A stretch of DNA of 64,000 nucleotides, taken from Alphaproteobacteria bacterium 46_93_T64 (lineage in GTDB: Bacteria; Pseudomonadota; Alphaproteobacteria; Sneathiellales; Sneathiellaceae). The notes beneath the pieces are model-generated. The model was not told where the DNA came from and did not search any database. It was given only the letters and a program-made list of their open reading frames with translations. Positions within the stretch are counted from its first letter, which is position 1. Each line of letters opens with the position of its first letter. The position numbers were made by a program, and so were the translations under genes. Where the stretch lies: positions 62,001 through 126,000 of the forward strand of contig MAAN01000025.1 of assembly GCA_002163135.1 (NCBI GenBank), read 5' to 3'. Shown here piece after piece: positions 5,788 to 54,207 of the stretch.

Positions 5788-5864
5788 GGCCCCATAGCTC
5801 AGCTGGATAGAGCAACAGATTTCTAATCTGTAGGTCGCAGGTTCGAGTCCTGCTGGGGTCACCA
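5788..5864 (+). tRNA. tRNA-Arg (anticodon TCT), integration target
   Basis: A full cloverleaf: acceptor GGCCCCA/TGGGGTC, D arm GCTC...GAGC, anticodon stem ACAGA/TCTGT with loop TTTCTAA (anticodon TCT at 5822-5824), T arm GCAGG-TTCGAGT-CCTGC, encoded CCA. Its 3' half is repeated at 39.76 and 53.80 kb, and a tyrosine integrase lies just downstream, so this gene is the attachment site of the island. The copy here is intact and should be functional. Confidence 0.97.
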
Positions 5865-6060
5865 GATCAAGCCCTTGAAAACATGAACGTTTTCAAGGGT
5901 TTTTCTTTTGTTCTCTCGTAAAACGCTGAAAAACCGTTCGTTTTGTTAAGTGTTTGTTTTTATTGATTAATACTGTTGAGTATTAATGTGTGTTATTTAG
6001 TAACGGGTAGATGAAAGGTAGATGGAACCGGCATTTGTTTCTAATTTGTTCTCCAATTAT
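5817..6060. repeat. att direct repeat, copy A (tRNA 3' end plus element left end)
   Basis: From the anticodon stem of tRNA-Arg through its terminator and on to the integrase 3' end, this DNA is repeated at 39757-39926 (copy B) and 53796-54207 (copy C). The match continues well past the tRNA. It includes the stretch around GTAAAACGCTGAAAAACCG and an AT-rich stretch ending in GTTGAGTATTA, so these bases belong to the element left ends and not only to the target gene. GGGTAGAT at 6005-6012 and GGTAGAT at 6017-6023 lie between the core and the integrase and may be arm-type integrase sites. Confidence 0.9.
5872..5904 (+). terminator. Terminator of tRNA-Arg
   Basis: A perfect 11-base inverted repeat CCCTTGAAAAC / GTTTTCAAGGG with a 6-base loop and a T-run. 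The same terminator, with small changes, follows both tRNA fragments further right. Confidence 0.88.
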
Positions 6061-6102
6061 TGTTGTGATTTTGAAAAGCTCCTGAGGCACTGCTTGGGCC
6101 AC

Positions 6103-7308
6103 TTAACCGAAAACTTCAATGCACATAGAGTTGGAACGTTCTGCTCGTTTTTCGTCGTCTTCTGGAAATAAATGCCCGTAGAATTGGTAGGTGACATCGA
6201 TGCTGCTGTGTCCCATTTCCTTTTTAATTTCCAAAGGAGATGCATCAGAGGCAATTAACATCGATGCATGAAAATGCCTAAGTGAATGAATACCAAACCA
6301 AGTTTCGACATGCTTTTTCTTCTTGCCGTTTTTTACGCGATAGGAAATTGTACAAAGCCCAGCTCGTTCGCAAATTGGTAGCCATCCTCGATTTCGGATA
6401 TTGGCGTAGCTCTCTATATTTCCTTGCCAATTTGGAAAGACGAGGTCTCCGTCAGGGCAATACATTTTCCAGTCTCTCAAGCACATCACAAGCTTAGTTG
6501 GGATTTGTACTGTTCTGCGCGCATGTTTAGTTTTTGGTGGGCCTATGGCGTTGGCTTTGTTGTCGGCACGCTGCTGTATTTTTATGGTTCTCTTTGAAAA
6601 ATTCACATTTATCCATTTAAGCCCTCTCAGTTCAGATATTCTAATGCCAGATAAAGCGAGGGTGAGAAAAATAGCATAATAACGATTGTATGATCGAATA
6701 TCCGTAGCTTTTGAAGCCTTTGGATAAGTAGCCGCAGCTTCAATAAGTTCTCTGACTTGATGTTTGGAAGGAATGGATAGCTCTTCACTAAACCTGCCGT
6801 CATCCTTAATTGTCACTCCAATCGCAGGGTTATATGCAAGCAGCTTTTTATCCAGTGCTACATTGAGCATTGTACTTAAAGTTCGCAATACACGCTTTGC
6901 CAATGGCCTGGAGCGACTGGTCAGCAGTTCAGCGCGGAAATGCTTGATTTTCTCACGATCCAGTTTATTGAGCCTTAACTCGCCAATCAGTGGGTTGATA
7001 TGTAGGCGAATTTCAGATTCATAGTTACTAATAGTTGCAGGTTCCAGGGGCATGCGGCCGTTAGGGCCGATTGCACATTCATGAAGCCAAACTGTGGCCA
7101 TCTCTTTAATCGATAGGGTTTTGCGATCGGGTACGTGGATGCCGTTCTTAAGTTCGATGTGTGATTTTGCATTAAAATCTACGGCTTCTTTTTTTGTAAG
7201 AAACTGCCTTTGATGCAGGTTACCGCTTTCGTCTAAATACTTGACTTTCCAAGCGACTTTTTCGATTCCCTTAGTGGTTTTCCATCTTACTTTGTACGGC
7301 TTTCCCAT
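6103..7308 (-). CDS. Tyrosine-recombinase integrase
   Basis: This 401-residue phage-type integrase has an N-terminal arm-binding (AP2-like) region with KYLDESGNLHQRQF. A SAM-like core-binding domain occupies about residues 65-170. The catalytic domain shows Arg in SGIRISELRGL, HSLRHFH (His341, Arg344), GHSS (His367) and the nucleophile Tyr377 in QFYGHLFP. All signature residues are present. It is transcribed towards tRNA-Arg, the usual layout for tRNA-targeting islands, and has a good ribosome site (AGGAGAG). It probably catalyses integration and excision at the tRNA-Arg 3' end. A decayed relative lies at 54.1 kb. Confidence 0.95.
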   Translation of the reverse strand: MGKPYKVRWKTTKGIEKVAWKVKYLDESGNLHQRQFLTKKEAVDFNAKSHIELKNGIHVPDRKTLSIKEMATVWLHECAIGPNGRMPLEPATISNYESEIRLHINPLIGELRLNKLDREKIKHFRAELLTSRSRPLAKRVLRTLSTMLNVALDKKLLAYNPAIGVTIKDDGRFSEELSIPSKHQVRELIEAAATYPKASKATDIRSYNRYYAIFLTLALSGIRISELRGLKWINVNFSKRTIKIQQRADNKANAIGPPKTKHARRTVQIPTKLVMCLRDWKMYCPDGDLVFPNWQGNIESYANIRNRGWLPICERAGLCTISYRVKNGKKKKHVETWFGIHSLRHFHASMLIASDASPLEIKKEMGHSSIDVTYQFYGHLFPEDDEKRAERSNSMCIEVFG

Positions 7309-7360
7309 GGCATCTCTCCTGAGTGTTCAGACTTAAATAAGATTTTAATTGCAAACTAGT

Positions 7361-8062
7361 TCATGTATTTTGCGCCTGCTTTAGTTTCCGATGCCACGCC
7401 ACTTTGCAGGCTTGCCTACAATAGACGGCGCGTTTTGTTTTTGGAATGAACCAGGTTTGGCAATTTTGGCAACGTAGCCAGCTCCTTTCGCCCGAAATTT
7501 CCTGCTCTATAAGCAGCCAGATGGCGGCATTTAAGTTTATGGGAGCATTAATGTAGCTATATTTTCCGCTCCTGGGATTATGTTCTAATTGCATTATACT
7601 TTGTATCCATTGAGTATTAAATGAATGGACGGCTGCCCGTTTATCGTTCCTATCCAAATGAGCGACGACGGATTGTACCTGCTCTTGAAGATGCCAAAAA
7701 TACTCTATGGACATAATATGATTAATTGGCATTGGTCCTAACTGCGGATGTACGCGAAACCCATAATTAAAGCCACTACCTGTATAAGGGCCATACTTCA
7801 TTTCATGCTCTAAAAGACCGTATTTTCCACAAAAACTAAGCACCTCCTCATCACCACTCTTACTTTGATCTAGCATCGCCAATTCTCGATGAATTGCTGC
7901 GTTTTGCAGCATTGGTGAATATTCTTTCTTTGGGCCTCCTTTTTGTACGATGTAACGCACCATGCCGTCGTAGGGTTCGGAACCGCTGTACAACCCTCGT
8001 TCACCTTCTAGTTCGATAATTTTGTATCCATCCTGATCAACCGACCAATCTAACCTATGCAT
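7361..8062 (-). CDS. Element protein with C-terminal zinc finger
   Basis: I do not recognise the N-terminal two thirds of this 233-residue protein. The C-terminus is a treble-clef-like zinc finger, CQNCQTWF...YCRQACKVAWHR, close to the CGNR-type fingers that end many small DNA-binding regulators. The start is the ATG preceded by AGGGAGT; a longer frame of 20 codons has no ribosome site. It lies between the integrase and the excisionase-like gene, divergent from the latter, with a 9-base inverted repeat in between. A regulatory role for the mobile element is inferred from position and the finger only. Confidence 0.75.
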   Translation of the reverse strand: MHRLDWSVDQDGYKIIELEGERGLYSGSEPYDGMVRYIVQKGGPKKEYSPMLQNAAIHRELAMLDQSKSGDEEVLSFCGKYGLLEHEMKYGPYTGSGFNYGFRVHPQLGPMPINHIMSIEYFWHLQEQVQSVVAHLDRNDKRAAVHSFNTQWIQSIMQLEHNPRSGKYSYINAPINLNAAIWLLIEQEISGERSWLRCQNCQTWFIPKTKRAVYCRQACKVAWHRKLKQAQNT

Positions 8063-8100
8063 ACTTGTACTCCCTATTTTTTGAATTATTTCTAAATGTA

Positions 8101-8132
8101 ACCGTAAAAATAGTTGAGTCAAGTTTTACGGT
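8101..8132. promoter_or_regulatory. Palindromic operator candidate in divergent promoter
   Basis: A perfect inverted repeat ACCGTAAAA - 14 bases - TTTTACGGT sits in the 128-base space between the divergent zinc-finger gene and the excisionase-like gene. There is no T-run that would make it a terminator for either gene. The likely use is binding of a dimeric element regulator controlling integration versus excision. Confidence 0.6.
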
Positions 8133-8565: not shown

Positions 8566-8835
8566 ATGAAAGACAAATTTCTTTTCGAACTAACCGACGG
8601 CTGGGCACTCCTCTACGATAACAGGCAATGGATGATCTGCAGAGCGCGAAAGCGCCATGCACAGGAGGTGTGGCATCCAGTTTCGTTCATAGAGAGCACA
8701 AAGACGGCATTGCTTGTCTGCATGCGGCAAAAAGGCATTGTCCCCACGCCGGAAGCTCAAGCCAAACTAGACAAAATGCCGGAACGTTTCCGAGATTGGC
8801 TGCAGGAACATCTAGGAGGAAATGTGAATGGTTGA
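8566..8835 (+). CDS. Hypothetical element protein
   Basis: This 89-residue soluble protein is one I do not recognise. It has an N-terminal beta-rich segment (FELTDGWALLYDNRQWMICR) and a charged helical C-terminus ending in ERFRDWLQEHLGG. It has a GGGGAC ribosome site and its stop overlaps the start of the primase gene by eight bases, so it is the first gene of the replication operon. A role as primase accessory or copy-control factor would be speculation. Confidence 0.7.
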   Translation: MKDKFLFELTDGWALLYDNRQWMICRARKRHAQEVWHPVSFIESTKTALLVCMRQKGIVPTPEAQAKLDKMPERFRDWLQEHLGGNVNG

Positions 8836-9991
8836 TCACATTACAATCTTAACGCAACTTCCCGGTAAAGGAGGCGCGCGCCGGGCTGCTGCGAAGACAC
8901 TTACCATAGATGAAAACGGGAATTGGTTGAAATCTAGCCAATATGCTCTCGGTAAGAACTTTGCGTATTCCACCATTGCCGCTACTGGCATTAATTCAGT
9001 GTATGAAGCGGTCTCGAAAATATCCGCGGACGTCTATTCATTCATTATTCGCGGAAAAATACGTCCGTTCGTGGATTTATCGAAACCTGTAAACCGCCGC
9101 ATTAACGACCGCCCGAATGATCCGGCGCATTTTCAGGAAGAGAAACGCAGTTGGGTTTGCCTTGATTTTGATCGGGTCAATATCGGTGGCCTTGAGGATA
9201 TAATCTTTGATCCCGAAGAGGCTGTTGAAGACCTTATATATCGGCATTTATGCAAAGAGTTTCATGATGTCACATGTGTTTGGCAACTCTCAAGTGGTGC
9301 TGGGACGACTGATCCTGACGGCACACTGTCAGTGCATTTATTCTTTTGGCTATCACGGCCAATGGGTAAAGAAGAGCTAAACTCGTACCTGAAGGAGCAC
9401 GCGCCGGAAGTTGACAGGTCTGTACTAGGGACTGTGCAGCCGATTTTTATCGCTAATCCACAGTTCGAAGCGCCCTTTAGCGACCCTCTTCTAAAAGGTA
9501 TTGGCTTGATGGAGCGTGAATATGATGAGCTGGACCTGCCTACGCTACCAATGCCGCCGGTTCAACTGCCGGTATCAAAGGTCAGAAAAACTAACCTTGG
9601 CAGAGTTGCTCCTGGTTATTACTCAAAAATACGCATGCTGGGTGATGGTCCTGGATTGGAAGGATTTAACGCCGTAATACCAGCCGCAGTCGCTTCATTG
9701 GTCTTTGGAAAGCACCCATACGAAATTGACGCTGCAGCCATAAAACTGCAGATGCGGACGGACATTGAGCTCGCTCCCAAAAACCCAAACCGAAGCTCTG
9801 CAGATATCGGACGTTACTTGTCGGATGAATACTTAGATGAATGCATAAGAACGGCGTCTGAGAAGTATGCAGAGCTTGCCATTGAGCCGCTTCACGAGGC
9901 GTCAGAAATGTCGACAGCAGACGTTAGACAACTGTTCCAGGCAGGTCTCAACGAATTCCTAACGAATGAAGTCATGAGGCTAGCAGCATGA
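8828..9991 (+). CDS. PrimPol-like replicative primase of the element
   Basis: This 387-residue protein carries the three signatures of archaeo-eukaryotic-type primase/polymerases. They are the metal-binding DxD in WVCLDFDRV (Asp113, Asp115), the sxH motif in GTLSVHLFFW (His170), and a third acidic motif followed by the VDRSV...VQPIFIANPQF block (Asp196). The C-terminal region (about 250-387) is helical and unassigned. Plasmids and integrative elements use such enzymes with a helicase to start their own replication. Here it overlaps the preceding small gene and the following helicase (ATGA). The motif reading is by eye; a profile search would settle it. Confidence 0.75.
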   Translation: MVDHITILTQLPGKGGARRAAAKTLTIDENGNWLKSSQYALGKNFAYSTIAATGINSVYEAVSKISADVYSFIIRGKIRPFVDLSKPVNRRINDRPNDPAHFQEEKRSWVCLDFDRVNIGGLEDIIFDPEEAVEDLIYRHLCKEFHDVTCVWQLSSGAGTTDPDGTLSVHLFFWLSRPMGKEELNSYLKEHAPEVDRSVLGTVQPIFIANPQFEAPFSDPLLKGIGLMEREYDELDLPTLPMPPVQLPVSKVRKTNLGRVAPGYYSKIRMLGDGPGLEGFNAVIPAAVASLVFGKHPYEIDAAAIKLQMRTDIELAPKNPNRSSADIGRYLSDEYLDECIRTASEKYAELAIEPLHEASEMSTADVRQLFQAGLNEFLTNEVMRLAA

Positions 9992-10557
9992 AGAAATTTT
10001 GTGATGGACCATTTATTGCCGCTGATTATTTGCCTCGACCTATTGGATGCGCCTCTGTTGACGTTGGGGTTGGTAAAACTGATGCTGCCGTTGGGATTAT
10101 TTCTCAGCTTTTGAAGCAGTCAATAGTCTGTAAACACCGTGATGAGCAGTCTGAACTAAAAGCTATTTACGCAGTCCCAACTCACAAGTTGGGGCAGGAA
10201 TTAGTGCAAAGATTTGTGGCTCGTGATGTGACTGCGGGGGTTTGGCGAGGACGGCTTGCGGATAATCCGGAAAAACCCGGTGAGAAAATGTGTTTAAAGC
10301 CTGCGGAAGTTGAAGAAGTTTCGGAAAGAGGGCTGCCTATCCAGCGATCAATGTGCCGGGTGAAAGTAGACGACATTCATTATACATGTGAGCATTTCCA
10401 GGATTGCCCTTATCAGATGCAAGCAGACCTTTTGTCACAAGTTGATGTTGTAATCGTTACACACGCGTCGCTGTTCTATGAGATGCCCAGCATTGGTCGG
10501 CGTCAGATACTTGTTATCGATGAAGCGTTTTGGTCAGCCGGATTGCGAGGGGTGTAG
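9988..10557 (+). CDS. Element helicase, N-terminal part (frameshifted)
   Basis: This 189-residue frame holds the start of a superfamily helicase: Walker A in VDVGVGKTDAA (around residues 25-33), a helicase Ia-like AIYAVPTHKLGQEL, and Walker B ILVIDEAFW near its end. It then hits a stop a few codons after the DEAF box. The reading frame one base back continues with plausible helicase sequence for another 540 residues. The switch point is a GGGG run at 10549-10552, and one extra G would restore a single protein of about 725 residues. It may be a sequencing or assembly error, a genuine inactivating indel, or a programmed -1 frameshift. It overlaps the primase gene by four bases. Confidence 0.75.
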   Translation: MKKFCDGPFIAADYLPRPIGCASVDVGVGKTDAAVGIISQLLKQSIVCKHRDEQSELKAIYAVPTHKLGQELVQRFVARDVTAGVWRGRLADNPEKPGEKMCLKPAEVEEVSERGLPIQRSMCRVKVDDIHYTCEHFQDCPYQMQADLLSQVDVVIVTHASLFYEMPSIGRRQILVIDEAFWSAGLRGV

Positions 10558-12182
10558 ATGTGGATGACAGAATATTTATCACTTTCGATGACATGGAAAA
10601 CCTTTCTGATTTGTTGGTTGAAGCAGGTGTGGCGTCTTCATTTGAGAGGTCTGAACTACATTCCATGTGGCTGCATTTGCAAAATGCACTGAAAGACTTG
10701 CCGCCTGGAAATCTGGAGCGATCTAAATCACTGGAACTATTTTCGCTGCGCCGAATAGACGATGCAATCGAGCTTGAATGGCGCCTAATCGGGATGACAA
10801 CCATATATCCGGGGATGAAGAGCGCCGAATTTACAGAAAATATCGATAAATCACCGAATTATAAAAAAGCGATGATGCGCATAAAAGTATGGAAGGCTCT
10901 GAAGGCGTTGATTTGTGAAGATGGTCCGGAGAAATCAGGATGGCTCATCATAAGCCAAGACAAAAAAGGACGGAAAGCGCTTCAATTGAGATGGCGAGAG
11001 GATATAAAAGTTGGCTGGGGAGGCTTTGTGGTTGTTACATTGGACGCAACTCAGGACGAACAAGTTGTTTCTCCCTATTTTGACCGGCCGTTGCAGCAGC
11101 TACCATCAAGTAATGTTGCGTTAGAGCATGTATCCGTATTGCAGGTGGTTGATCGGAGTTTTGGAGCTTCATCACTCATACCTGACGGGGGAAAGGATGA
11201 TCAGCGGCGCAAAAATCGTGCGTGGGAGACTTATCAATGGATTTGGCTGAGAGCCATCCAGTATCGGGGACAAAGCCAAGATGGCATTGATGTTCTGGTG
11301 GTTTGCCAACTGGGACTGGAAGAACTATTTCGCGCATGGGGCTTGCCGGATAATGTGGATATCACGCATTTTAACGCGCTTCGGGGGTTGGACAATTGGG
11401 GCGGCGTCGCGTGCCAAATTACGATTGGTCGCTTAATGCCAAAACCAACAGCGGTTGAGGACATTGCAGAAGCTCTAACCGGGAGAGCGGTGGATAAACG
11501 TTTGTCTCCTAATGACTGGTACCCGAAACAAACCGTTGGAATTCGTCTCGCAGATGGAAGTGGTTGGGCCGTTGAAAATGACCGCCATCCTGATCCGCTT
11601 GCTGAGAAAATCCGGTATCAAATCTGTGAAGGTGAACTCATTCAGGCTATCGGCCGCTCCCGAGGAGTAAATCGGTCACCCGAAACACCGTTACAAATAG
11701 ACATTCTCACTAATGTATGTCTGCTGCTTGTTGTACATCAGCCAATCCGCTGGGCAGAACATGCGCCGGGTATTGTTGAGGCAATGTTATCGCGCGGGCT
11801 CATGGTTGGCTCCTTCAAGGATGCAGCAGTCATAAGCGCTGACCTCTTTCCAACAGAGGATGCCGCGCGGAAAGCCGTCTGGAGAAGATCGAAGATACTC
11901 ACTTCAAACGTGCCTATTCCGGACATTCCCCATTATGTATGTACTATATGGGGTTTGTCCGGAATAGGCATCACTATTGCCCATAGCTTTACCCCGGCAC
12001 TCGCCACTTTCCGTCGCGGTGAACGATCCACTGTAATTCCAGTTATTTTTGACCCACATCGGATTGACGACCCTGCGGCTTGGTTGAGTTCGCGGCTTGA
12101 TGTTGATGTTCAAGTGATAACTGGTCCAGAGGCCAATGTTGAATGGGCGATACGGCAAAAACGAAAGGCAGGACGAAAATGA
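10530..12182 (+). CDS. Element helicase, C-terminal part (frameshifted)
   Basis: This is the continuation of the preceding helicase in the -1 frame. A natural start is hard to see (only a TTG inside the upstream gene), which supports a broken or frameshifted single gene. The region includes VVVTLDATQD and, near residue 385, the helicase motif VI-like stretch QAIGRSRGVNRS with its arginine finger. The last 150 residues are unassigned. The product would unwind DNA for the PrimPol-like primase encoded just upstream. The stop overlaps the ATG of the ribbon-helix-helix gene. Real translation probably enters from the upstream frame near 10550. Confidence 0.7.
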   Translation: MVSRIARGVDVDDRIFITFDDMENLSDLLVEAGVASSFERSELHSMWLHLQNALKDLPPGNLERSKSLELFSLRRIDDAIELEWRLIGMTTIYPGMKSAEFTENIDKSPNYKKAMMRIKVWKALKALICEDGPEKSGWLIISQDKKGRKALQLRWREDIKVGWGGFVVVTLDATQDEQVVSPYFDRPLQQLPSSNVALEHVSVLQVVDRSFGASSLIPDGGKDDQRRKNRAWETYQWIWLRAIQYRGQSQDGIDVLVVCQLGLEELFRAWGLPDNVDITHFNALRGLDNWGGVACQITIGRLMPKPTAVEDIAEALTGRAVDKRLSPNDWYPKQTVGIRLADGSGWAVENDRHPDPLAEKIRYQICEGELIQAIGRSRGVNRSPETPLQIDILTNVCLLLVVHQPIRWAEHAPGIVEAMLSRGLMVGSFKDAAVISADLFPTEDAARKAVWRRSKILTSNVPIPDIPHYVCTIWGLSGIGITIAHSFTPALATFRRGERSTVIPVIFDPHRIDDPAAWLSSRLDVDVQVITGPEANVEWAIRQKRKAGRK

Positions 12183-12352
12183 CCGGTAAATTTGACAAGA
12201 AAATTCTCTTCAATATCTCCCAAACTGACATCGACCGTATGACCGAGATGCGGAGAAAACGCGACCTAGATCAGTCGGAGTATATACGTCGGGCCATTCG
12301 TATGTATGTGGCCGAGCAAAAGTTAGCAGACCTCTCGTCACCGTATCAGTGA
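12179..12352 (+). CDS. Ribbon-helix-helix DNA-binding protein
   Basis: This 57-residue protein has the Arc/CopG-type ribbon-helix-helix pattern: a short basic strand (KKILFNIS) and two helices (QTDIDRMTEMRRKRD, QSEYIRRAIRMYVAEQ). It starts in an ATGA overlap with the helicase gene. Such proteins usually autoregulate a replication operon or act as antitoxins. No toxin-like partner is adjacent, so replication control is the better guess. Confidence 0.8.
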   Translation: MTGKFDKKILFNISQTDIDRMTEMRRKRDLDQSEYIRRAIRMYVAEQKLADLSSPYQ

Positions 12353-12393
12353 CAGTTGTTACACCCACGCGCCCACTTATCATGGAGTACGAA

Positions 12394-12582
12394 ATGAGAG
12401 ACAAGATTATTTGCGGTGCCAGAACCCGTAAAGGAACGGCATGTCAGGCTAAGGCGTTGGCGAATGGTCGGTGTCGGAATCATGGTGGGTTGTCTACCGG
12501 TCCACGGACGCCTGAGGGTCGTGCGCGGTCGCTGGCGGCGTTGCGTCGAGGGAATAAATCTTGGCGAGGGCGATCAGTTTGA
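12394..12582 (+). CDS. HGGxSTG-domain small protein
   Basis: This 62-residue protein matches the HGGxSTG family, with CGARTRKGTACQAKAL, NGRCRNHGGLSTGPRTPEGR and a basic tail. The Cys and His residues suggest a zinc-binding knuckle. The family occurs in phages and integrative elements and its function is unknown. The start is set at the ATG after GGAG; a GTG 15 codons earlier overlaps the preceding gene. It is the last gene of the element core before the cargo. Confidence 0.8.
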   Translation: MRDKIICGARTRKGTACQAKALANGRCRNHGGLSTGPRTPEGRARSLAALRRGNKSWRGRSV

Positions 12583-43952: not shown

Positions 43953-44373
43953 CAGTGTAAAACTTCTATTGGTTGAAGATGACGAAATTGATGTAATGGG
44001 TATTCGAAGAGCTTTAAAATCAATGAAAATTGTCAATTCACTTTGTATTGCAAGAGATGGAATTGAAGCTTTGGAATATTTACGAGGTGAAAACGGGAAA
44101 GAAAAACTTGAACAGCCATACATTATTCTACTTGATCTAAACATGCCTAGAATGGGCGGACTTGAATTCCTTGAAGAGGTTCGCAAAGACGAAAAACTGC
44201 AGAAAAGCACTATATTTGTCATGACCACATCTTCCGACGAAAAAGATATATGTGCCGCTTACGATAAAAATATCGCCGGTTACATAGTAAAATCTAAAGC
44301 GGAGGAAACTTTTCTGGAAGCAATAAATATGATCGGTCATTATTGGAAAATAGTGGAATTCCCACAACAATAG
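43945..44373 (+). CDS. Single-domain response regulator
   Basis: This 142-residue REC-only protein of the Rcp1-like group has LLVEDDEIDVMGIRRAL, phospho-acceptor Asp in ILLDLNMPRMGG, FVMTTSSDEKD and the conserved Lys in YIVKSKAEE. No output domain, so it works by protein contact or as a phosphate shuttle. It overlaps the kinase gene by eight bases. Confidence 0.93.
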   Translation: MDNSVKLLLVEDDEIDVMGIRRALKSMKIVNSLCIARDGIEALEYLRGENGKEKLEQPYIILLDLNMPRMGGLEFLEEVRKDEKLQKSTIFVMTTSSDEKDICAAYDKNIAGYIVKSKAEETFLEAINMIGHYWKIVEFPQQ

Positions 44374-44499
44374 TTTGCGAATGAGAGTTGGCTACTTAAT
44401 CAGTTAATTGTTGTCAGCTTTCCAAGATTAGTTGGCTTAAATACACCTACACACTATATTTTGTAATACATATGTAGTGTGGAAGTATCAGGTGATTTT

Positions 44500-44550
44500 A
44501 TGGAAAAGCCAACTGCCGCCGTATATTATAGGACCTCATCTGCATCAAAT
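44500..44550 (+). pseudogene. Relic of a serine recombinase N-terminus
   Basis: The frame MEKPTAAVYYRTSSASN matches the start of site-specific serine recombinases (catalytic Ser in YYRTSS). It then runs into the 3' end of the LysR gene on the other strand and is lost. It may have been cut off when the neighbouring block was inserted or deleted. Confidence 0.55.
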
Positions 44551-45477: not shown

Positions 45478-45709
45478 GCCGTTGAGCTCCTAGATCATAG
45501 AACGTTGGTTTTTATTATTTAATTTTTCGATAATGCATAATGATAAATCAAATAATCTAAAATATGAAAAACAAAATATAGAGGGTTTGTCTGGCATTTA
45601 TCTAAACTGTATCGGAAAAGTTGATATTGCAATAACGAATTTTAGAATTTTACAAGATGCCAACGGGTCTGCCACTGTTTGTGAAACCAGAATACTAGGA
45701 AGGTCCGGA

Positions 45710-46495
45710 ATGCGTGACATCGTTGATTTGAATTGTGATATGGGCGAAGGATTTGGCCAGTGGACGTTAGGAGAAGCGCCTGATGAAGAAATCATGGCAC
45801 TGATCAGTTCAGCAAATATCGCAGCAGGATTTCACGCTGGAGATCCCAACTCCATGGATAGAGTTGTGAGGCTGGCCCAAAATTATGGTGTCGGGTTAGG
45901 GGCGCATCCCGGTTACCACGATCTGAGGGGTTTCGGACGGCGACATATTCAAATGAATCCCGAAGAACTGATAAACGACATTTTGTATCAGGTTGGTGCT
46001 TTGAGAGAATTTGGTCGTCGGTATGGCACTACGCTGCAACACATCAAGTTGCATGGCGCCTTGTATATGGAAGCGGCAAAGAATGAGAAGTTGTCCCAAC
46101 TGTTAATAGATACGCTTCAGAAAACCTCCCCTGATGTGATCATCTTTTGCATGGGCATGTCGAAGACTTACGATGTGGCCAAACGAAATGGATATGCGGT
46201 TATTCGAGAATTTTATGCAGACCGCGACTATGCCAAAAGCGGATCCATCGTTTTCAAACGTCAAGTTAACCGCCCTGATCCAAAAGCAATTGCACAAAAA
46301 TGCGTTCGGGCTTGCCAGGAAGGTAAGGTCACAACAGTGGATGGAGAGGATATCGACATCGACTTTGAATCAATTTGCTTTCATTCAGACACCCCGGGAG
46401 CTTTGGCTGTCGGTACCGCAATTCGTCAAGCGCTGATCGACAATGGTATTTCAATCGTCCCTGCAGCAACAGTTCTCCAACACGGTACTCTTTAA
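45710..46495 (+). CDS. pxpA: PxpA / LamB-YcsF family protein
   Basis: This 261-residue LamB/YcsF protein has [13 protein letters not shown] at the N-terminus, then [35 protein letters not shown] and REFYADRDY, all family hallmarks. In E. coli-type PxpABC it acts with PxpB and PxpC to hydrolyse 5-oxoproline using ATP. Start at the ATG behind AGGAAGG; an open frame runs 59 codons upstream without ribosome site. First gene of a five-enzyme operon that also has a biotin carrier and carboxylase. Confidence 0.93.
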
Positions 46496-46505
46496 GGATA
46501 AAAAT

Positions 46506-46742
46506 ATGGCAAATATTCAATCACCGCTGCCCGGGACTTTCTACCAGAAACCTTCACCTGAAGAAGCCCCGTACAAATCAAACGGGGACTCGGTGAATAT
46601 CGGAGATACAATTGGTTTGGTCGAAGTGATGAAAACCTTCATCGAGGTAAAATCTGACATCAGAGGAACCTTTTCGGAGTATCTCGCGGTTGATGCTGCC
46701 CCGATACAGGCTGGAGACTTTCTTGCAGAGCTGATGGCCTGA
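46506..46742 (+). CDS. Short biotin carboxyl carrier protein
   Basis: This 78-residue biotinyl domain has the attachment motif EVMKTF (Lys43), where the usual EAMKM has changed to EVMKT, as in carriers of non-acetyl-CoA carboxylases. The N-terminal linker of AccB is missing. It lies 10 bases after pxpA and just before a biotin carboxylase. Confidence 0.92.
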   Translation: MANIQSPLPGTFYQKPSPEEAPYKSNGDSVNIGDTIGLVEVMKTFIEVKSDIRGTFSEYLAVDAAPIQAGDFLAELMA

Positions 46743-46745
46743 CAG

Positions 46746-48131
46746 ATGAACATTAACCGCCTATTCATTGCAAACAGAGGCGAGATTGCAGTCCGAATAA
46801 TCAAAGCTGCAAATGCTCTGGGTGTGAAAACGATCCAAGCTTTCTCAGAAGCTGACAAAGACATGCTTTCTGTCCGTTTGGCGGATGAATCAATTTGCAT
46901 AGGTCCCGCATCCGCATCGGCTTCTTATCTGGATATTAATGCAGTTGTGAGTGCTGCGGTTCGTATGAAAGCAGATGCTGTTCATCCGGGCTACGGCTTT
47001 TTAGCCGAGAACGCTGATTTTGCAAAAGCCGTTAAAGACGCGGGCATGATTTTTGTTGGTCCTGACGCTGAAACAATTGAACGGATGGGGGATAAAGTCT
47101 CTGCCCGGCAAGTTGCAGAAGCCGCTGGCGTACCAGTTGTTCCTGGCTCCAAAGGGCGCGTTGAGTCAACTGATGATGCAGCCAAGATTGCAAAGACTAT
47201 CGGATATCCGGTGATGATCAAAGCGGCAGCTGGCGGCGGGGGTCGGGGTATTCGCATCGCGCAAAATGAAGAAGAATTACGAAACTTTGCGCCGCAGGCA
47301 CAGGCTGAAGCTCTTGCTGCATTTGGTGACGGTGGTTTGTATCTGGAAAGAGCCATTAGATCTCCACGTCATATTGAAGTTCAAATCCTGGGGGATGGTG
47401 TGAACGCCATTCACTGTTTTGAGCGAGAATGTTCGCTACAACGAAGACGCCAAAAAGTCTGGGAAGAGGCGGGAGCCGTTAATTTGAAAAAGGCCACGGT
47501 AGCGCATCTTTGTCAGGCTGCTGTGGATTTGGCTAAAGCCGTGCAGTATCGCGGTGCTGGTACGATTGAGTATTTGTATGATGATGATACAGGTGAGTTT
47601 TACTTCATAGAAATGAACACGCGGATCCAGGTTGAGCATACGGTCAGTGAAATGATCACTGGAATTGATCTGGTTCAGGAGATGATCCGCATTGCAGGCG
47701 GCGGAAAACTCAATCTTCGTCAGGATCAGATTATTCGCAATGGTCACGCCATTGAAGTGCGGATCAATGCAGAAGACCCCTTTATGCAGTTTATGCCATT
47801 TCCCGGAAAAGTTGGGACAATGAGTATCCCTAAGGGCGATGGTGTTCGCGTAGATCATTTCCTGTATGAGGGATATCAAATCCCCCCTTTCTATGACTCA
47901 TTACTCGGAAAATTGATCGTTCATGCGCCGTCGCGGGATGAAGCAATAAACAAATTGTTGGTAGCGTTGAAAGAGTTCCAGATTGGCGGCCTCAAGACAA
48001 CGATGCCTCTACATATTGCGCTGGCAAGTGATCGCGATGTACGGGCTGGAAAATTCCATACCCAGTGGCTGGAAGCCTGGTTGGCCGCAGGTAATTTGGA
48101 TGCCACTATGAGAGAGGGAGCGTTGCTTTGA
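46746..48131 (+). CDS. Biotin carboxylase (AccC-type)
   Basis: This 461-residue ATP-grasp biotin carboxylase has FIANRGEIAVRIIKAA, the glycine-rich KAAAGGGGRGIRIA, ERECSLQRRRQKVWEEAGA, and EMNTRIQVEHTVSEMITGIDLV with the catalytic Arg. It charges the biotin carrier with CO2. Being inside the pxp-type operon, it probably serves that system rather than fatty-acid synthesis. The start is four bases after the carrier stop; it overlaps the next gene by four bases. Confidence 0.94.
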   Translation: MNINRLFIANRGEIAVRIIKAANALGVKTIQAFSEADKDMLSVRLADESICIGPASASASYLDINAVVSAAVRMKADAVHPGYGFLAENADFAKAVKDAGMIFVGPDAETIERMGDKVSARQVAEAAGVPVVPGSKGRVESTDDAAKIAKTIGYPVMIKAAAGGGGRGIRIAQNEEELRNFAPQAQAEALAAFGDGGLYLERAIRSPRHIEVQILGDGVNAIHCFERECSLQRRRQKVWEEAGAVNLKKATVAHLCQAAVDLAKAVQYRGAGTIEYLYDDDTGEFYFIEMNTRIQVEHTVSEMITGIDLVQEMIRIAGGGKLNLRQDQIIRNGHAIEVRINAEDPFMQFMPFPGKVGTMSIPKGDGVRVDHFLYEGYQIPPFYDSLLGKLIVHAPSRDEAINKLLVALKEFQIGGLKTTMPLHIALASDRDVRAGKFHTQWLEAWLAAGNLDATMREGALL

Positions 48132-49003
48132 AAACAAGATACACATTCGGCGGCGACGAGCATATTTATGTGGAAATGGATGAAGAGATGTCTCTGGACG
48201 CCTTCTTCAAAAGTCTTTCCATGAGTACGGAAGTTCGGAAGGCGAATATTTCGGGAGTAACCGAGATATGCCCTGCGAATGCGTCGTTTCAAGTCAAATT
48301 TAACCCGGATGTCATTCATCCTGATGATATGATGAAGAAACTGAAAGAACTGGAACATCTGGCCGAAAATGCAGAAAAGCGGCTGGAAACACGGATTGTT
48401 GAAATTCCGGTTTATTATCAGGATCCCTGGACTCATGAGACAGTTATGCGGTTCCGCGAACGCCATCAGGATCCAAGCGGGACTGATTTGGAATATGCCG
48501 CATCAATAAATGGATTTGACAGCGTAGAAGCCTTTATCGAAGCACATCACTCTCAGCCCTGGTTTGTATCTATGGTCGGATTTGTTTCCGGATTACCTTT
48601 CCTCTACCAACTTGTTGAAAAAGAGAAACAATTACAGGTACCGAAATACTTAAGCCCGAGAACAGACACGCCAAAATTGACGGTGGGATATGGTGGCTGT
48701 TTCTCGTGTATCTATTCGGTTCGGGGAGCTGGCGGTTATCAAATGTTTGGCATAACGCCCATGCCCATTTTTGATCCTGAACAGAAAGTCTCCTATCTTT
48801 CCGATTTCATGGTTTTTTTCAAACCCGGTGACATCGTTAAATGGAACCCAATTGACCGGGCAGAATATGACCGGATTGTCAATGAAGTGGCAGCTGGTAC
48901 GTATGTGCCAAAAATCGCAAATGTCTCCTTTGATCTTAATGAATTCAACGAAGATATTCCCAAATCAAATGCTAAGCTGATGGAGGCCCTCCATGGCGCT
49001 TAA
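48128..49003 (+). CDS. pxpB: PxpB-like (KipI / carboxyltransferase subunit 1)
   Basis: This 291-residue protein of the KipI/allophanate hydrolase subunit 1 family is recognised by RIVEIPVYYQDP, MVGFVSGLPFLYQL, and the loop KLTVGYGGCFSCIYSVRGAGGYQMFG. Typical PxpB is about 220 residues; the family core (SPGGWQLIG-like) is diverged to GAGGYQMFG and there is an extra insertion around residues 95-140. Such a divergent form next to a biotin carboxylase suggests a carboxyltransferase for a substrate other than 5-oxoproline. Confidence 0.85.
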   Translation: MKTRYTFGGDEHIYVEMDEEMSLDAFFKSLSMSTEVRKANISGVTEICPANASFQVKFNPDVIHPDDMMKKLKELEHLAENAEKRLETRIVEIPVYYQDPWTHETVMRFRERHQDPSGTDLEYAASINGFDSVEAFIEAHHSQPWFVSMVGFVSGLPFLYQLVEKEKQLQVPKYLSPRTDTPKLTVGYGGCFSCIYSVRGAGGYQMFGITPMPIFDPEQKVSYLSDFMVFFKPGDIVKWNPIDRAEYDRIVNEVAAGTYVPKIANVSFDLNEFNEDIPKSNAKLMEALHGA

Positions 49004-49964
49004 AATTCTTAACTCTGGACTGTCAACAAGCATACAGGACCTGGGGCGACCCGGATATTTTCATATTGGCATTCCTATTGGTGGGGCTATGGATCGGCTT
49101 GCATTGCAATCGGCAAATATGCTTGTTGGGAATGATGCCGGGGCGGCAGGACTCGAAGCCGTGTTTATGGGCCCAGAAATCGAATTTACTCAAGATGCCT
49201 CAATTGCTGTTACGGGGGCCGATATTCCCATCAAACTGGACGGAGAGCTTCGAGAGGCCTGGAAATCGTTTAATGTAAAGGCTGGCCAAAAGCTGAGTTT
49301 CGATTTTCTGAAAACAGGGGCCCGTATCTATATTGCGATCTCCGGTGGGATCGATACACCAATCGCATTGGGAAGTCGCTCAACTTATACAATCGGTGCA
49401 CTGGGCGGCTTTGAGGGCCGTAACCTCGCTGCTGGAGATGAAGTGCCAATAGGGAATGGTAGGCTTGTTCCTGAAGGCCGAACAGTTCCTGAGGCCCTGA
49501 GGCGGATGCCGGAAAGCTCTGCTGAACTTCGCGTCTTACCGGGTCTGTATTGGCACCGGATCACTGAGCAGTCAGGAAAGAATTTTTTCGACGACGAATG
49601 GAAAGTTGCACCGGAGGCCGACCGTATGGGTTACCGCTTCAGAGGCGGGAGGCCACTTGACTTTGTCGATCGTAATCAGCCATTTGGCGCAGGCTCGGAT
49701 CCATCAAATATCGTTGATGGATGTTATTCCTACGGGTCAATACAAGTGCCTGGCGGAACCGAGCCAATCATACTTCACCGGGATGCGGTTTCCGGAGGTG
49801 GCTATTTCACCTTGGGAGCAATTATTTCAGCCGACATGGATTTTGTCGGGCAACTGCAACCCCATACATCGGTTCGATTTAGACGCGTTGATATGAAAGA
49901 AGCTTTGTCCGCACGTAAAGAGAGAAAAGACATACTGACTAAAATCACAGAAGCGCTCGCCTAA
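48993..49964 (+). CDS. pxpC: PxpC-like (carboxyltransferase subunit 2)
   Basis: This 323-residue biotin-dependent carboxyltransferase family protein (allophanate hydrolase subunit 2 / KipA) has STSIQDLGRPGYFHIGIPIGG at the start, AISGGIDTPIALGSRSTYTIGALGG in the middle, and GGTEPIILHRDAVSGGGYFTLG near the end. It overlaps PxpB by 11 bases. With PxpB it resembles the carboxyltransferase half of urea carboxylase. Confidence 0.9.
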   Translation: MALKILNSGLSTSIQDLGRPGYFHIGIPIGGAMDRLALQSANMLVGNDAGAAGLEAVFMGPEIEFTQDASIAVTGADIPIKLDGELREAWKSFNVKAGQKLSFDFLKTGARIYIAISGGIDTPIALGSRSTYTIGALGGFEGRNLAAGDEVPIGNGRLVPEGRTVPEALRRMPESSAELRVLPGLYWHRITEQSGKNFFDDEWKVAPEADRMGYRFRGGRPLDFVDRNQPFGAGSDPSNIVDGCYSYGSIQVPGGTEPIILHRDAVSGGGYFTLGAIISADMDFVGQLQPHTSVRFRRVDMKEALSARKERKDILTKITEALA

Positions 49965-50019
49965 GAAGCGTCCCAATTTCCACACCGTATTTTCCCAACT
50001 GACAGAGGAGATCAGAACG

Positions 50020-51093
50020 ATGAGACTTGCCCTAAAAACAACCCTGCTAACGGGTGCAGCGCTATTGTTGCCAACAATCGGTAACGCAGCCGACGCTTGG
50101 TATCCGTATACTGCAGAAGCAGTAAATCCCGCTTTCTCAAGCGACGGAGCCAGCAGTAAAATTGTTTATAATCCACTCGAAAAAACGGAAAAAGCATGGA
50201 ATATCTGCGTTTCTTTTCCGCATATGAAAGATGCCTACTGGTTAGGCGTTGATTATGGTGTTGCGGATGAAGCCGCACGACTAGGTGTCAAAATGAACCT
50301 GGTTGAAGCTGGCGGATATACAGAACTGAACAAGCAGATAAGTCAAATTGAGGATTGTGTTGCAGGGGGAGCAAATGCAGTTGTGATTGGTGCGATTTCT
50401 TATGATGGCCTCAATAATGTGATCGGAGAAATAAAAGCAAAAGGTATTCCGGTTATTGATCTAGTGAACGGCGTGTCGTCTAAGGATATTTCCGCCAAGT
50501 CGCTCGTCTCATTTCGCACTATGGGATACGAAACAGGGGCCTATCTCGCGGCCAAGCATAAAGCAGGTACAACTCCTGTAAAAGTTGGATGGTTCCCTGG
50601 ACCTGCGGGCGCTGGTTGGGTTGAAGCGGCCCACTCAGGCTTTATGGATGCTGTAAAAGGCTCCGCCGTACAGGTTCTCGAGCCTCGCTTCGGCGATACA
50701 GGCAAAGAAACCCAGTTGAAGCTTGTTGAAGATGTTCTACAGGCCAATCCTGATGTTCGGTATATCGCCGGCACAGCCGTGACTGCAGAAGCGGCGCAGG
50801 GTTTGATCCGTGAACGCGGGCTCAAGGGAAAAGTCGATTTGTTAGCGTTCTATATGACACCGGGTGTTTATACCGGGATCAAGCGCGGGTTTATCTTGGC
50901 TGCACCGGCAGACAGTATGGTGGTTCAGGGACGAATTGCGATCGATCAGGCTGTCCGTATTCTCGAAGGAAAAGAGTACGTGAAACATGTAGGACCGAAG
51001 ATTTTCGTCGTCGATCCACAAAACATCAATGATGTGTCACGTGCTAACATTCTTCCACCCGAAGGATATAAGCCTGTGTTCTCTGTTAAGTAA
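50020..51093 (+). CDS. TorT-like periplasmic sugar-type binding protein
   Basis: This 357-residue Peripla_BP (type 1) protein has a signal peptide (LALKTTLLTGAALLLPTIG, cleavage near GNAAD). The mid-region WNICVSFPHMKDAYWLGVDYGVADEA resembles TorT-type binding proteins. It is followed by an ATPase and permease of the ribose class, so here it is the receptor of an importer. TorT proper senses TMAO with a kinase, but no TorS partner is adjacent. The ligand is probably the substrate of the upstream carboxylase system. Confidence 0.88.
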   Translation: MRLALKTTLLTGAALLLPTIGNAADAWYPYTAEAVNPAFSSDGASSKIVYNPLEKTEKAWNICVSFPHMKDAYWLGVDYGVADEAARLGVKMNLVEAGGYTELNKQISQIEDCVAGGANAVVIGAISYDGLNNVIGEIKAKGIPVIDLVNGVSSKDISAKSLVSFRTMGYETGAYLAAKHKAGTTPVKVGWFPGPAGAGWVEAAHSGFMDAVKGSAVQVLEPRFGDTGKETQLKLVEDVLQANPDVRYIAGTAVTAEAAQGLIRERGLKGKVDLLAFYMTPGVYTGIKRGFILAAPADSMVVQGRIAIDQAVRILEGKEYVKHVGPKIFVVDPQNINDVSRANILPPEGYKPVFSVK

Positions 51094-51115
51094 CGGACAT
51101 CTCATAGAGGCTATT

Positions 51116-51147
51116 TGGGTTGGATATGCGCATGCGTATCCAGCCCA
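51116..51147 (+). promoter_or_regulatory. Intercistronic hairpin downstream of the binding-protein gene
   Basis: An 11-base stem TGGGTTGGATA / TATCCAGCCCA (one G-T pair) with a 10-base loop lies between the binding-protein stop and the ATPase start. No T-run follows, so it is not a terminator. Such hairpins protect the upstream message and raise binding-protein over ATPase levels. Confidence 0.7.
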
Positions 51148-51165
51148 CTTTCCTGGGAGGAAGAA

Positions 51166-52662
51166 TTGCTTATAGAAACGACAGGGCTCACGAAAAAATA
51201 TCCGGGAGTTTTGGCTCTTAATGGTGTCGATTTCAACTTGAAACGCGGCGAAGTCCATGTTTTGTTTGGTGAAAATGGGGCAGGAAAATCGACGCTGATT
51301 TCCATTCTAGCGGGTGCAATTACACCTTCGGACGGGAAGATTACAGTCGAGGGAGAAGTCGCGCATTTTAACTCAGTCGCTGAGGCTCAAGCTCATGGAA
51401 TATTTACTGTATTTCAAGAATTTTCTCTCATTCCAACTCTCACAGCGGCTCAGAATATCTTCTTGGGCTGGGAGCCGAAAATTGGGCCGTTTATCAACCA
51501 TCGGGAAATGCGTGAGCGTTCTCGTGAATTATTTGAAGAACTGGGATTTGACATTAATCCAGATGAAATTGTTGCACGCCTTTCAAGGGGGCAGCAACAG
51601 ATGGTTGAAATTACAAAAGCATTCCACGGTGATCTTTCCACTCTCATTTTGGATGAGCCAACAGCGTCACTGACAGACCAGGAAGTTGATCATCTTTTCG
51701 ACTTTATCAAATCGCTGCAGGCCCGCGGTGTCGGAATTATTTACATTTCCCACCGAATTCAGGAATTTGTTCGGATCGCAGATCGGGTAACCGTGCTGCG
51801 TGATGGGGCTAAGATTGGTACAGTTTCCATGAAGGAAACGGATGATAGCGCCTTGTTGGAGATGATGACAGGCCGCGTAATTTCTGAAATATACCCAAAG
51901 ATCAATCATAACCCTGGAGCGGAGATCTTAAGAGTAAATGACCTTAAGACAAATGGCGTTGAAGGTGTTTCTCTTTCTGTTCGAGCCGGTGAGGTATTGG
52001 GCGTGGCAGGGTTGGTTGGATCCGGAAAATCCCGCCTTTTCCGGGCAATAATGGGACTGACAGGCAAGCAATCGGGAAGTGTATATTTTAATAATCTGAA
52101 TATCAGTGCATTGCCAACAAGAAAAATTATCAAGATGGGCATGTATTATCTGTCACCAGATCGGAAAACAGAAGGTCTGGACCTTGCGAAAACGGCAACA
52201 GAGAACCTTGCGGTAAATTTGATTATGGGCGGATTAGCGAGCGGTCCCGCCGGATTTATCAACTGGGACGCAATCACATTGGAAAGCGGAAAAATTGCTG
52301 ACCGTGTTGAGCTGTCGTCATCCTACAGGATGAAACCGGTTTCTCAACTGTCGGGTGGTAACCAGCAAAAAGTGCTCTTTGCCAAGTGTTTTGGACAAGA
52401 TGTTGATTTGTACATCTTTGATGAGCCCACTGTCGGCGTCGATATGGGAACCCGGGTGGCGCTGTACTTGCTAATCAAACAACTGGCAGAGGCCGGTAAA
52501 GCCGTGATCGTGATTTCCTCGGACTTACCAGAGGTAATGAACCTTGCTCACAGACTTATTGTGCTGTCACGGGGACATATATCTGCTGAGCTGAGCGGCG
52601 ATGACATCGAAGAGGATCAAGTCCTCAAATATTTCTTTGAGGAAAATGGGACGGAACAATGA
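51166..52662 (+). CDS. Ribose-class ABC transporter ATPase (RbsA-like)
   Basis: This protein of about 498 residues has two ABC domains. The first has Walker A GENGAGKST, signature LSRGQQQ and LILDEPTASLT. The second has a changed Walker A (GLVGSGKSR), signature LSGGNQQK and IFDEPTVGVD. One canonical and one degenerate site is normal for RbsA/MglA. The start appears to be a TTG right after GGGAGGAAGAA. An earlier in-frame start at 51115 would read through the hairpin. It overlaps the permease by four bases. Confidence 0.91.
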   Translation: MLIETTGLTKKYPGVLALNGVDFNLKRGEVHVLFGENGAGKSTLISILAGAITPSDGKITVEGEVAHFNSVAEAQAHGIFTVFQEFSLIPTLTAAQNIFLGWEPKIGPFINHREMRERSRELFEELGFDINPDEIVARLSRGQQQMVEITKAFHGDLSTLILDEPTASLTDQEVDHLFDFIKSLQARGVGIIYISHRIQEFVRIADRVTVLRDGAKIGTVSMKETDDSALLEMMTGRVISEIYPKINHNPGAEILRVNDLKTNGVEGVSLSVRAGEVLGVAGLVGSGKSRLFRAIMGLTGKQSGSVYFNNLNISALPTRKIIKMGMYYLSPDRKTEGLDLAKTATENLAVNLIMGGLASGPAGFINWDAITLESGKIADRVELSSSYRMKPVSQLSGGNQQKVLFAKCFGQDVDLYIFDEPTVGVDMGTRVALYLLIKQLAEAGKAVIVISSDLPEVMNLAHRLIVLSRGHISAELSGDDIEEDQVLKYFFEENGTEQ

Positions 52663-53669
52663 AAGTTGCACAAATAAAAATTAATCCGGTAGGCCTAATC
52701 AGTCAGACTTTTATAAAAGTAGGCGTTCTACCTTTCTTCCTCATTGGCGCTTTGATTATCTTCACAGCATTGTCGCCCAAATTTCTGACAGCAGACAATT
52801 TCGTTAATGTAGCGCGTCAGTCGGTGTATTTAGTGCTGGTGTCTCTTGGGCAAATGCTGGTCTTGATTTCGGGTGGTTTCGATCTTTCGGTAGGAACCGC
52901 AATTGCTATCACCTCCGTCGTCTCTGCGACTGCTATGGTCTGGTTTTCAGGCATTTTTCCTGAAATGATATGGCTCGTAATACTATTAGGCGCACTCGTC
53001 GGATTGAGTTCAGCTTTTCTTGTCGGTTTGGTGAACGGGATCGGTGTTGCTTATTTCAGTGTATCACCCTTCATTATGACCTTGGGTGTTTCCTCCGTTG
53101 GGGCGGGACTAGCTCTTTTCCTAACCGGAGGCGTTCCGGTATCTGGTCTTCCGTTTGCGTTCGGTGATATTTTCGGATTTGGCCGAATATGGGGGATCCC
53201 AACTCCGGTTCTCATTGCGTTTGTTCTGATTGCTTTTATGTGGGTGCTCATGTCGCGAACGAGCCTTGGGACACAAGTGTATGCTGTGGGTGGGAACATC
53301 AAGGCAGCGCATCTTTCTGCGATCAATACCAAGCGTACTTTGTTGTTTACATACATAATCTGCTCCCTGATCGGATCCTTGACTGGCTTGTTGCTTACAG
53401 CGCGGGTTGAATCCGGTGAAGCCAATCTTGGTAGCACAATCGCTCTTGAATCAATTGCCGCCTGTGTGATTGCGGGCGTCTCTTTGCGAGGAGGCATCGG
53501 ACGGGTTGAAAGTGTTGTTCTCGGGGCGTTTTTCATTGTCCTCGCACAAAACGGTATGAACCTCGCTCAGATCAGTTCCTACATGCAGATGGTTTTGCTC
53601 GGACTAGTGCTCATACTTGCAGTTATTTTTGATCAGGTACGATACAAAATGATCATGGGTGGCAAGTAA
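52659..53669 (+). CDS. Ribose-class ABC transporter permease (RbsC-like)
   Basis: This 336-residue BPD_transp_2 permease has many transmembrane helices and the family motif GGFDLSVGTAIAITS, with ALESIAACVIAGVSLRGGIGR near the C-terminus. It completes the importer with the preceding ATPase and binding protein. Last gene of the second att segment; the right-end repeat begins about 100 bases downstream. Confidence 0.92.
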   Translation: MKVAQIKINPVGLISQTFIKVGVLPFFLIGALIIFTALSPKFLTADNFVNVARQSVYLVLVSLGQMLVLISGGFDLSVGTAIAITSVVSATAMVWFSGIFPEMIWLVILLGALVGLSSAFLVGLVNGIGVAYFSVSPFIMTLGVSSVGAGLALFLTGGVPVSGLPFAFGDIFGFGRIWGIPTPVLIAFVLIAFMWVLMSRTSLGTQVYAVGGNIKAAHLSAINTKRTLLFTYIICSLIGSLTGLLLTARVESGEANLGSTIALESIAACVIAGVSLRGGIGRVESVVLGAFFIVLAQNGMNLAQISSYMQMVLLGLVLILAVIFDQVRYKMIMGGK

Positions 53670-53764
53670 CCTAGATCTCTTTATAGGCGGCTCTGTTGGG
53701 AACAAATACTAACACTAATCATTAGGTGTACAATGTTGCCTCCGCCTTTTTTAGAATTGTTTTT

Positions 53765-53795
53765 TCAAATCCTAGTTTCTTGTTAAAGGGTAGAT
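53765..53795. repeat. Element right-end repeat, copy 2
   Basis: Identical over 31 bases to 39678-39708. Here the tRNA fragment joins directly after GGGTAGAT, whereas copy 1 has about 48 more bases, including a second GGTAGAT, before the tRNA fragment. A small deletion has occurred in one of them. Confidence 0.88.
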
Positions 53796-54050
53796 GCAGG
53801 TTCGAGTCCTGCTGGGGTCACCAGATCAAACCCTTGAAAACATAGACGTTTTCAAGGGTTTTTCTTTTATTCTCTCGTAAAACGCTGAAAAACCGTTCGT
53901 TTTGTTAAATGTTTGTTTTTATTGATTAATCCTGTTGAGTATTAGTGCGTATCATTTAGTAACGGGTAGATGGTGCCGGCCTTTGTTTCAAATTTGTTTT
54001 CCAGCTATCGTTGCGGTTTAGCAAAGTACCTAAGGCACGGCTCAAAACTA
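53796..54050. repeat. att direct repeat, copy C
   Basis: Begins at GCAGGTTCGAG of the tRNA T arm, continues through CCA, the terminator and the left-end sequence, then GGGTAGAT at 53964-53971, and leads into the integrase relic. It matches copy A over its whole length with scattered changes. It is attR of the second segment and the left end of a third, decayed element. Confidence 0.9.
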
Positions 54051-54051
54051 C

Positions 54052-54207
54052 TTATCCGAAAAACTCAATGCATATGGTATTGGAGCGTCCTGCTCGTTTT
54101 TCGTTGTCATCTGAAGATAGATACCCGTAGAACTGATATATGACACTAATGCTGCTGTGTCCCATTTCCTTTTAATTTCCAAAGGAGATACACCAGAAGC
54201 ATTTAAC
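54052..54207 (-). pseudogene. Integrase relic (C-terminal 50 codons)
   Basis: The minus-strand frame gives MGHSSISVIYQFYGYLSSDDNEK and ends in CIEFFG, matching the C-terminus of the intact integrase at 6.1 kb, including the catalytic Tyr. One A is missing in the AAAAAGG run just upstream, shifting the frame. Homology stops at about 54207. The rest of the gene is gone. Confidence 0.92.

Follow-up and report, generated by a model that had tools for sequence, protein, structure and literature searches.

Genomic islands standing in tandem behind a single RNA gene have been described in Streptococcus and in Dehalococcoides. Extracts of PMC7563491 describe mobile genomic islands (MGIs) and tandem cis-mobilizable elements (CIMEs) of Streptococcus salivarius, where an element with its own integrase and no recognised relaxase stands in tandem with integrase-less segments that are bounded by attachment (att) sites and in some cases carry metabolic genes. 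Behind the ssrA gene of Dehalococcoides, excerpts of PMC3146451 report several islands in tandem, each with a copy of the 3' end of the RNA gene and many without an integration module. Here we describe an array of this kind in Alphaproteobacteria bacterium 46_93_T64, whose genome (4.0 Mb, 41 contigs) belongs to the genus Sneathiella. The window, by which we mean the whole 64,000-nucleotide stretch analysed (positions 62,001 to 126,000 of contig MAAN01000025.1, our C24, 135,084 bases), contains a tRNA-Arg(TCT) gene followed by further copies of its 3' end. We consider it likely, from the sequence, that the locus grew by tandem accretion of integrase-borne islands at the 3' end of this gene; there are at least two such islands and probably three.

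The array differs from the S. salivarius elements, as the extracts present them, in its tRNA-Arg target, its alphaproteobacterial host and the truncated distal att site on its integrase-less segment, and it has a tyrosine integrase and a tRNA where the excerpts on Dehalococcoides give a serine recombinase and a tmRNA target. As the same architecture is described in those extracts and in extracts of PMC5704250, the Sneathiella array belongs to an already known type: bacteria are known to collect genes by this route, and the array adds an example and testable detail but no new principle. A limited literature search found no genomic-island study of Sneathiella. In this genus the locus offers a clean case in which successive islands at one tRNA can be tentatively ordered, the sequence predicts which segment can leave, and whole catabolic operons (glycerol uptake and 5-oxoproline use) are placed between att sites.

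Copies of the tRNA-Arg end and of the integrase

We named the tRNA-end copies A (5817), B (39757) and C (53796), and the intervals that they bound segment 1 or island Z (5817-39756) and segment 2 or island Y (39757-53795), with island X from 53796 onward (Table 1). A preliminary description of the locus had reported that the 3' part of tRNA-Arg and its terminator occur three times as direct repeats, complete only at the first site. Repeat alignment confirmed this: the family (D1, 177-nt reference 5837-6013) recurs at 39777-39953 (84%) and 53796-53972 (94%), and the window holds only one complete tRNA-Arg(TCT). Identity between A and B begins exactly at the anticodon stem, where 48 of 49 nucleotides are identical, and leftward of 5817 and 39757 the two have zero bases in common; copy C begins only at the T arm. 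Judged by eye, the aligned homology of B with A and C gives out around 39926-39940, ahead of the integrase-side arm repeat. At up to three mismatches, a 25-nt pattern running from the T arm to CCA has five matches genome-wide, of which A, B and C show 0-1 mismatch and two places on other contigs show 3, and no att copy beyond these was found elsewhere in the genome.

Additional repeats mark the element ends. In the window, the paired repeat GGTAGATRNAAGGTAGATG has matches at 6006 and 39702 alone, one at either end of segment 1 (2 found versus 0.04 expected at up to three mismatches, the pattern being derived from these same two sites), and its position suggests that both are arm-type sites. 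The 31 nt left of copy B are identical to those left of copy C, so segments 1 and 2 have one kind of right end; a genome-wide search for more right ends returned just these two. Copy C keeps a single GGGTAGAT on each side, one unit of the paired arm repeat being lost, and the left end of segment 2 is without an integrase and without the integrase-side arm repeat.

The active site of tyrosine recombinases is expected to hold R, HxxR, H and Y, and all of these positions are present in the integrase beside copy A. Behind copy C we found a 40-residue integrase end (54055-54174) that is 70% identical and contains one stop. Between B and C, the search for integrase-like frames found none, and there is no recombinase among the proteins scanned there. 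The Pfam scan covered 49 distinct window proteins, among them all open reading frames (ORFs) of at least 150 aa in segments 1 and 2, apart from five whose sequence overlaps that of a longer gene on the opposite strand. Domains, frame search and remnant agree with the preliminary description on all three points: the integrase is intact beside A, absent after B and represented by a decayed end after C. Segment 1 has three marks of an integrative island at a tRNA gene, namely an integrase beside an att site, a distal repeat of the tRNA 3' end and content that is absent at the site in relatives; as island Z, it spans 33.9 kb and combines an integrase, primase and helicase backbone with about 27 kb of cargo and a complete att site at each end. 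The earlier proposal of tandem islands at tRNA-Arg, the second without its own integrase and with traces of a third, is supported by the att boundaries, the congener loci and the integrase remnant behind C.

Table 1. Features of the tRNA-Arg(TCT) array and its surroundings, in window coordinates.
Feature	Coordinates	Strand	Basis or remarks
Complete tRNA-Arg(TCT)	5788-5864	+	ARAGORN and Rfam; 3' half from 5817 is att copy A
att copy A: anticodon stem to CCA, terminator, element left end	5817-6013	+	repeat alignment
Paired repeat, proposed integrase arm site, integrase side of segment 1	6005-6024	+	function inferred from position
Intact tyrosine integrase, 401 aa, C-terminus facing tRNA	6103-7308	-	open frame; Phage_integrase and SAM-like domains
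Integrase-adjacent protein, 253 aa, no Pfam match	7361-8122	-	counterpart precedes related integrase in G011 (47% identity)
Primase-like protein	8828-9991	+	PHROG 16950, E 6e-17
Helicase region, two overlapping frames (9988-10557, 10530-12182)	9988-12182	+	DEAD domain in first frame
Two small ORFs: 57 aa (weak repressor match) and 62-aa HGGxSTG protein	12179-12582	+	common to G007 tRNA-end element
Segment 1 cargo, about 27 kb	12745-39191	.	sulfatase, two Gfo/Idh proteins, ABC uptake, GntR-type regulator, cyclase, serine resolvase
Segment 1 cargo, continued	within 12745-39191		glycerol operon, metallo-hydrolase, ATP-grasp, NifU, YccV-like, flavin oxidoreductase
Right-end sequence of segment 1	39678-39708	+	31 nt identical to that left of copy C
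Paired repeat, proposed arm site, right end of segment 1	39701-39720	+	function inferred from position
att copy B, full, from anticodon stem	39757-39940	+	repeat alignment
Segment 2 cargo	40038-53669	.	GGDEF-EAL, CHASE histidine kinase, response regulator, LysR
Segment 2 cargo, continued	within 40038-53669		5-oxoprolinase-type genes (presumed pxpABC), biotin carboxylase, biotinyl domain, TorT-like ABC uptake system
Right-end sequence of segment 2, one repeat unit (GGGTAGAT)	53765-53795	+	31 nt identical to that left of B
att copy C, truncated: begins in T arm, without anticodon arm	53796-53972	+	repeat alignment
Remainder behind copy C	53973-62700	.	two proteins without Pfam match, SDR, LysR, M24 peptidase, TauD-like
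Decayed 3' end of third integrase	54050-54210	-	81-85% DNA identity to intact gene
Conserved chromosome resumes	62732-64000	+	first gene of block; type I secretion by eye only

The locus and related elements in congeners

We searched 23 congeners (designated by G and a number), obtained a match to the NDUS4-tRNA-Arg region in 20 and fetched 19 loci; G019, whose contig stops at the locus, was left out of the comparison. PA14 and NDUS4 genes precede tRNA-Arg(TCT) in all 19, with 14-38 kb of downstream sequence in 13 loci and less than 6 kb in the other six. When 44 window proteins (6-62 kb) were compared with the sequence downstream of the tRNA in the 19 congeners, the best match at half coverage was 37.7%. 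A second tRNA-end copy (up to 4 mismatches in 26) was not found in 11 of the 13 congeners with long downstream sequence; the remaining two have one each, at +10.7 kb in G010 and at +35.5 kb in G003, and an integrase frame adjoins each. Nearest to a plainly empty site are G001, G016 and G018, where a gene of 372-374 aa lies 52-56 bp behind the tRNA. Two loci without a second copy contain integrase traces, a weak one of 141 residues beside the tRNA in G012 (E 4e-4) and an integrase-like frame at +30.6 kb in G009 (E 6e-8), so the absence of a second copy does not mean that the site was never visited. Neither outcome that the preliminary description named as refuting was seen: no fetched congener locus has the gene order of the window, and within the 14-38 kb read some loci have no second copy and others have a single element.

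Elements at tRNA ends are also found elsewhere in the genus. Nine distal copies from six congeners (one each in G003, G005, G007 contig C209, G010 and G011, and four in G018) all include the anticodon loop, with a few substitutions in it, e.g. in G010 and one G018 copy, and some of them are accompanied by quite different integrases; the truncated copy C is an exception in comparison with these nine, which retain the anticodon arm. No complete tRNA was seen on the G007 contig that carries the distal copy. The G018 array resembles ours in having a complete tRNA, here tRNA-Phe(GAA) at C9:1256536-1256611, followed by 3'-end copies, four of them up to 1331089, and in having two frames of related integrase, of 319 and 143 residues; it differs in the tRNA used, in having the integrase frames before distal copies and in that all its copies extend through the anticodon loop. 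The tRNA-Met element of Sneathiella chinensis (G011) contains the closest integrase found (43%) side by side with the same neighbour protein, but its integrase lies at the distal end, over the 59 kb read it has a single distal copy and a length of 20.2 kb, and its cargo is different. Another element at tRNA-Met, in G005, is 10.5 kb long. A regular repeat array with a 66-bp period, CRISPR-like in appearance, lies directly behind tRNA-Met inside the G005 integrative element (L090:1930-3300).

Order of insertion, alternative histories and present mobility

It is established that integrases of this kind cross over in the anticodon loop and restore the tRNA. The boundaries and the pattern of decay suggest that X, Y and Z would have entered in that order, a sequence of events that we propose tentatively, each by such a crossover, in which the island's own 3' half made the tRNA complete again. 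Later losses would have removed the integrase and the integrase-side arm from island Y, and the distal site and most of the sequence from island X.

Over the first 126 aligned positions, with the fading end of B excluded, the left ends show 6 differences between A and B, 6 between A and C and 4 between B and C, which lends the order slight support. These counts also bear on a different history, to our minds an unlikely one, in which at least 48 kb arrived as one composite element with copy B already inside, through a single integration at the tRNA. The intact integrase at the outer end fits such an arrival, transfer of composite tandems of a CIME and an integrative and conjugative element (ICE) is reported in extracts of PMC5704250, and copy C could once have been a full distal site, prior to truncation. 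On the other hand, B and C agree with each other and differ from A at four left-end positions, against two such positions for each of the other pairings, which is a slight signal, and one right-end sequence is present in Z and again, as a separate copy, in Y, as expected for separate elements; neither the left-end nor the right-end evidence dates the joining of Z and Y. Duplication or homologous recombination, rather than an integrase, as the source of copies B and C appears highly improbable: the surroundings of the locus do show dispersed repeats (see below) and chromosomal rearrangement, but B begins exactly at the anticodon stem and carries element-end repeats, and the start at the anticodon stem recurs in all nine congener distal copies irrespective of their differing integrases. 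Several observations nevertheless count against accretion in the order proposed. That order rests on decay and the few left-end substitutions given above; the lone GGGTAGAT octamer is not significant (4 found, 1.17 expected; at least 4 in 6 of 100 shuffles); the distal att site of island X was not found; GC content is flat over the array, at 44.3-46.9%; and tRNA-end copies in congeners would be missed if they lay farther out than the 14-38 kb read. Moreover, the block found behind the tRNA in the close relatives G005, G009 and G015 is located on another contig (C16) in this genome, and the 19 kb adjoining it gave no T-arm match as a sign of a tRNA remnant, so rearrangement has also acted in the history of the locus.

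The preliminary description had supposed that the integrase could mobilise one or both segments. As copy C is without the anticodon arm and has one repeat unit, and the left end of Y is without the arm repeat, only the A x B pair has both full sites. The intact integrase would excise Z alone by this pair, leaving tRNA-Arg intact ahead of Y, and excision by B x C and A x C is predicted to be poor or dead because of the missing anticodon arm of C. Only the island nearest the tRNA looks still able to leave, and present mobility of segment 2 is unlikely; the earlier supposition is weakened to the A x B excision, the part concerning segment 2 being undercut by the truncation of C and the lost arm repeat. 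There is also a real chance, though short of even, that the array is fixed, with the same history and an integrase that is inactive or without a directionality factor, such that nothing moves now. Such a state would fit the accretion history and bears only on mobility at present. The helicase split over two frames, the decay of the neighbouring islands and the lack of any recognised excisionase or relaxase among the scanned proteins speak for a fixed array, whereas the intact integrase frame with its expected active-site residues and the retention of cores and paired repeats at A and B speak against it.

With respect to the CIME class, segment 2 has no recombination genes of its own and, judged by sequence only, does not retain two usable att sites, which the class requires; we therefore call it a relic of that kind. 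A wider idea, which we hold to be doubtful, is that tRNA-anchored att arrays serve Sneathiella as a slow, genus-wide cassette store. Different integrases with common backbone modules would deposit operon-sized cargo from a genus pool at tRNA-Arg, -Phe, -Met and others, and integrase loss and att trimming would then lock the segments in place.

Backbone, cargo and flanking sequence

The integrase, its 253-aa neighbour, the primase-like protein, the helicase and the small ORFs look like a mobile backbone. A profile search of genome contigs with the integrase sequence alone returned no relative, and one with a two-sequence integrase alignment returned three loci, that of S. chinensis at 43% and the others at 25%; viral contigs searched with the alignment gave no match. 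Against plasmid proteins the integrase gave 218 records, all below 60% identity and the best at about 32%. The primase had no match among phage proteins, and the second helicase frame had plasmid-protein matches at 23-42% identity among the 10 of 23 matches listed. The split of the helicase over two overlapping frames may reflect decay or a sequence error. The stretch with the two small ORFs recurs in a G007 contig at 82% DNA identity over 515 bp, and that contig has an integrase unlike ours (31% across part of the protein) and a tRNA-like 3' fragment at its end. No relaxase or conjugation genes, as would mark an integrative and mobilizable element (IME) or an ICE, were found among the 49 window proteins in the Pfam scan.

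For the cargo, six congeners were searched with window 24-44 kb. The glycerol block (24749-32249), presumably a glp-type operon, is colinear at another place in G009 and G012 at 73% DNA identity, which indicates that this cargo belongs to the gene pool of the genus; G015 has a more diverged version (67-70%), and in G005, G007 and G011 only the first gene was matched. Segment 2, with a 5-oxoprolinase-type operon that we take to be pxp, had only matches shorter than 200 bp in the same six congeners, att copies included. The preliminary description had called the metabolic operons mobile cargo; this stands as history, but segment 2 is now unlikely to be mobile and the glycerol block is also present elsewhere in congeners. 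Behind the pxp operon, at 50020-53669, lie genes for a TorT-like periplasmic protein, an ABC ATPase and a permease; the TorT-like protein scores over the cut-off of NF008185 and slightly under that of TIGR02955.

Conserved chromosomal sequence resumes with a block, starting at 62732, that is colinear in G007, G015, G012 and G011. The proteins of 53.8-62.7 kb were not found beside this block in any of the four (>42% identity, half coverage), and the stretch 53973-62700 is therefore best read as the probable relic of a third island. The M24 peptidase within it (58509-59777) has a 71% relative elsewhere in G005, and its top NCBIfam match is the dimethylsulfoniopropionate (DMSP) lyase DddP, at 300 bits against a cut-off of 600. 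By eye, a gene very similar to the SDR gene right of C (56180-57360) is seen on contig C19 (L087:11865-12989), where the same repeat precedes it (73% across 206 nt), and it adjoins a gene whose G007 counterpart follows tRNA-Arg.

A dispersed repeat of up to about 140 bp occurs in the same orientation in five intergenic places (12665, 21298, 37378, 56238 and 59812). Its 27-nt pattern has four genome-wide matches at up to three mismatches, all in the array, and looser copies are seen on contig C19 and several G007 contigs. The repeat prompted us to consider an integron cassette array, which we rejected because the integrase falls far under the integron model (TIGR02249, 25.7 bits versus a cut-off of 265) and because of the looser copies elsewhere. 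Short tandem repeats are found at 36692-36795 and 36017-36068, with units of 8 bp (AGTTCCAT) and 13 bp. Upstream of the tRNA, a thiamine pyrophosphate (TPP) riboswitch lies on the minus strand at 3472-3574, ahead of ABC transporter genes at 919-3478.

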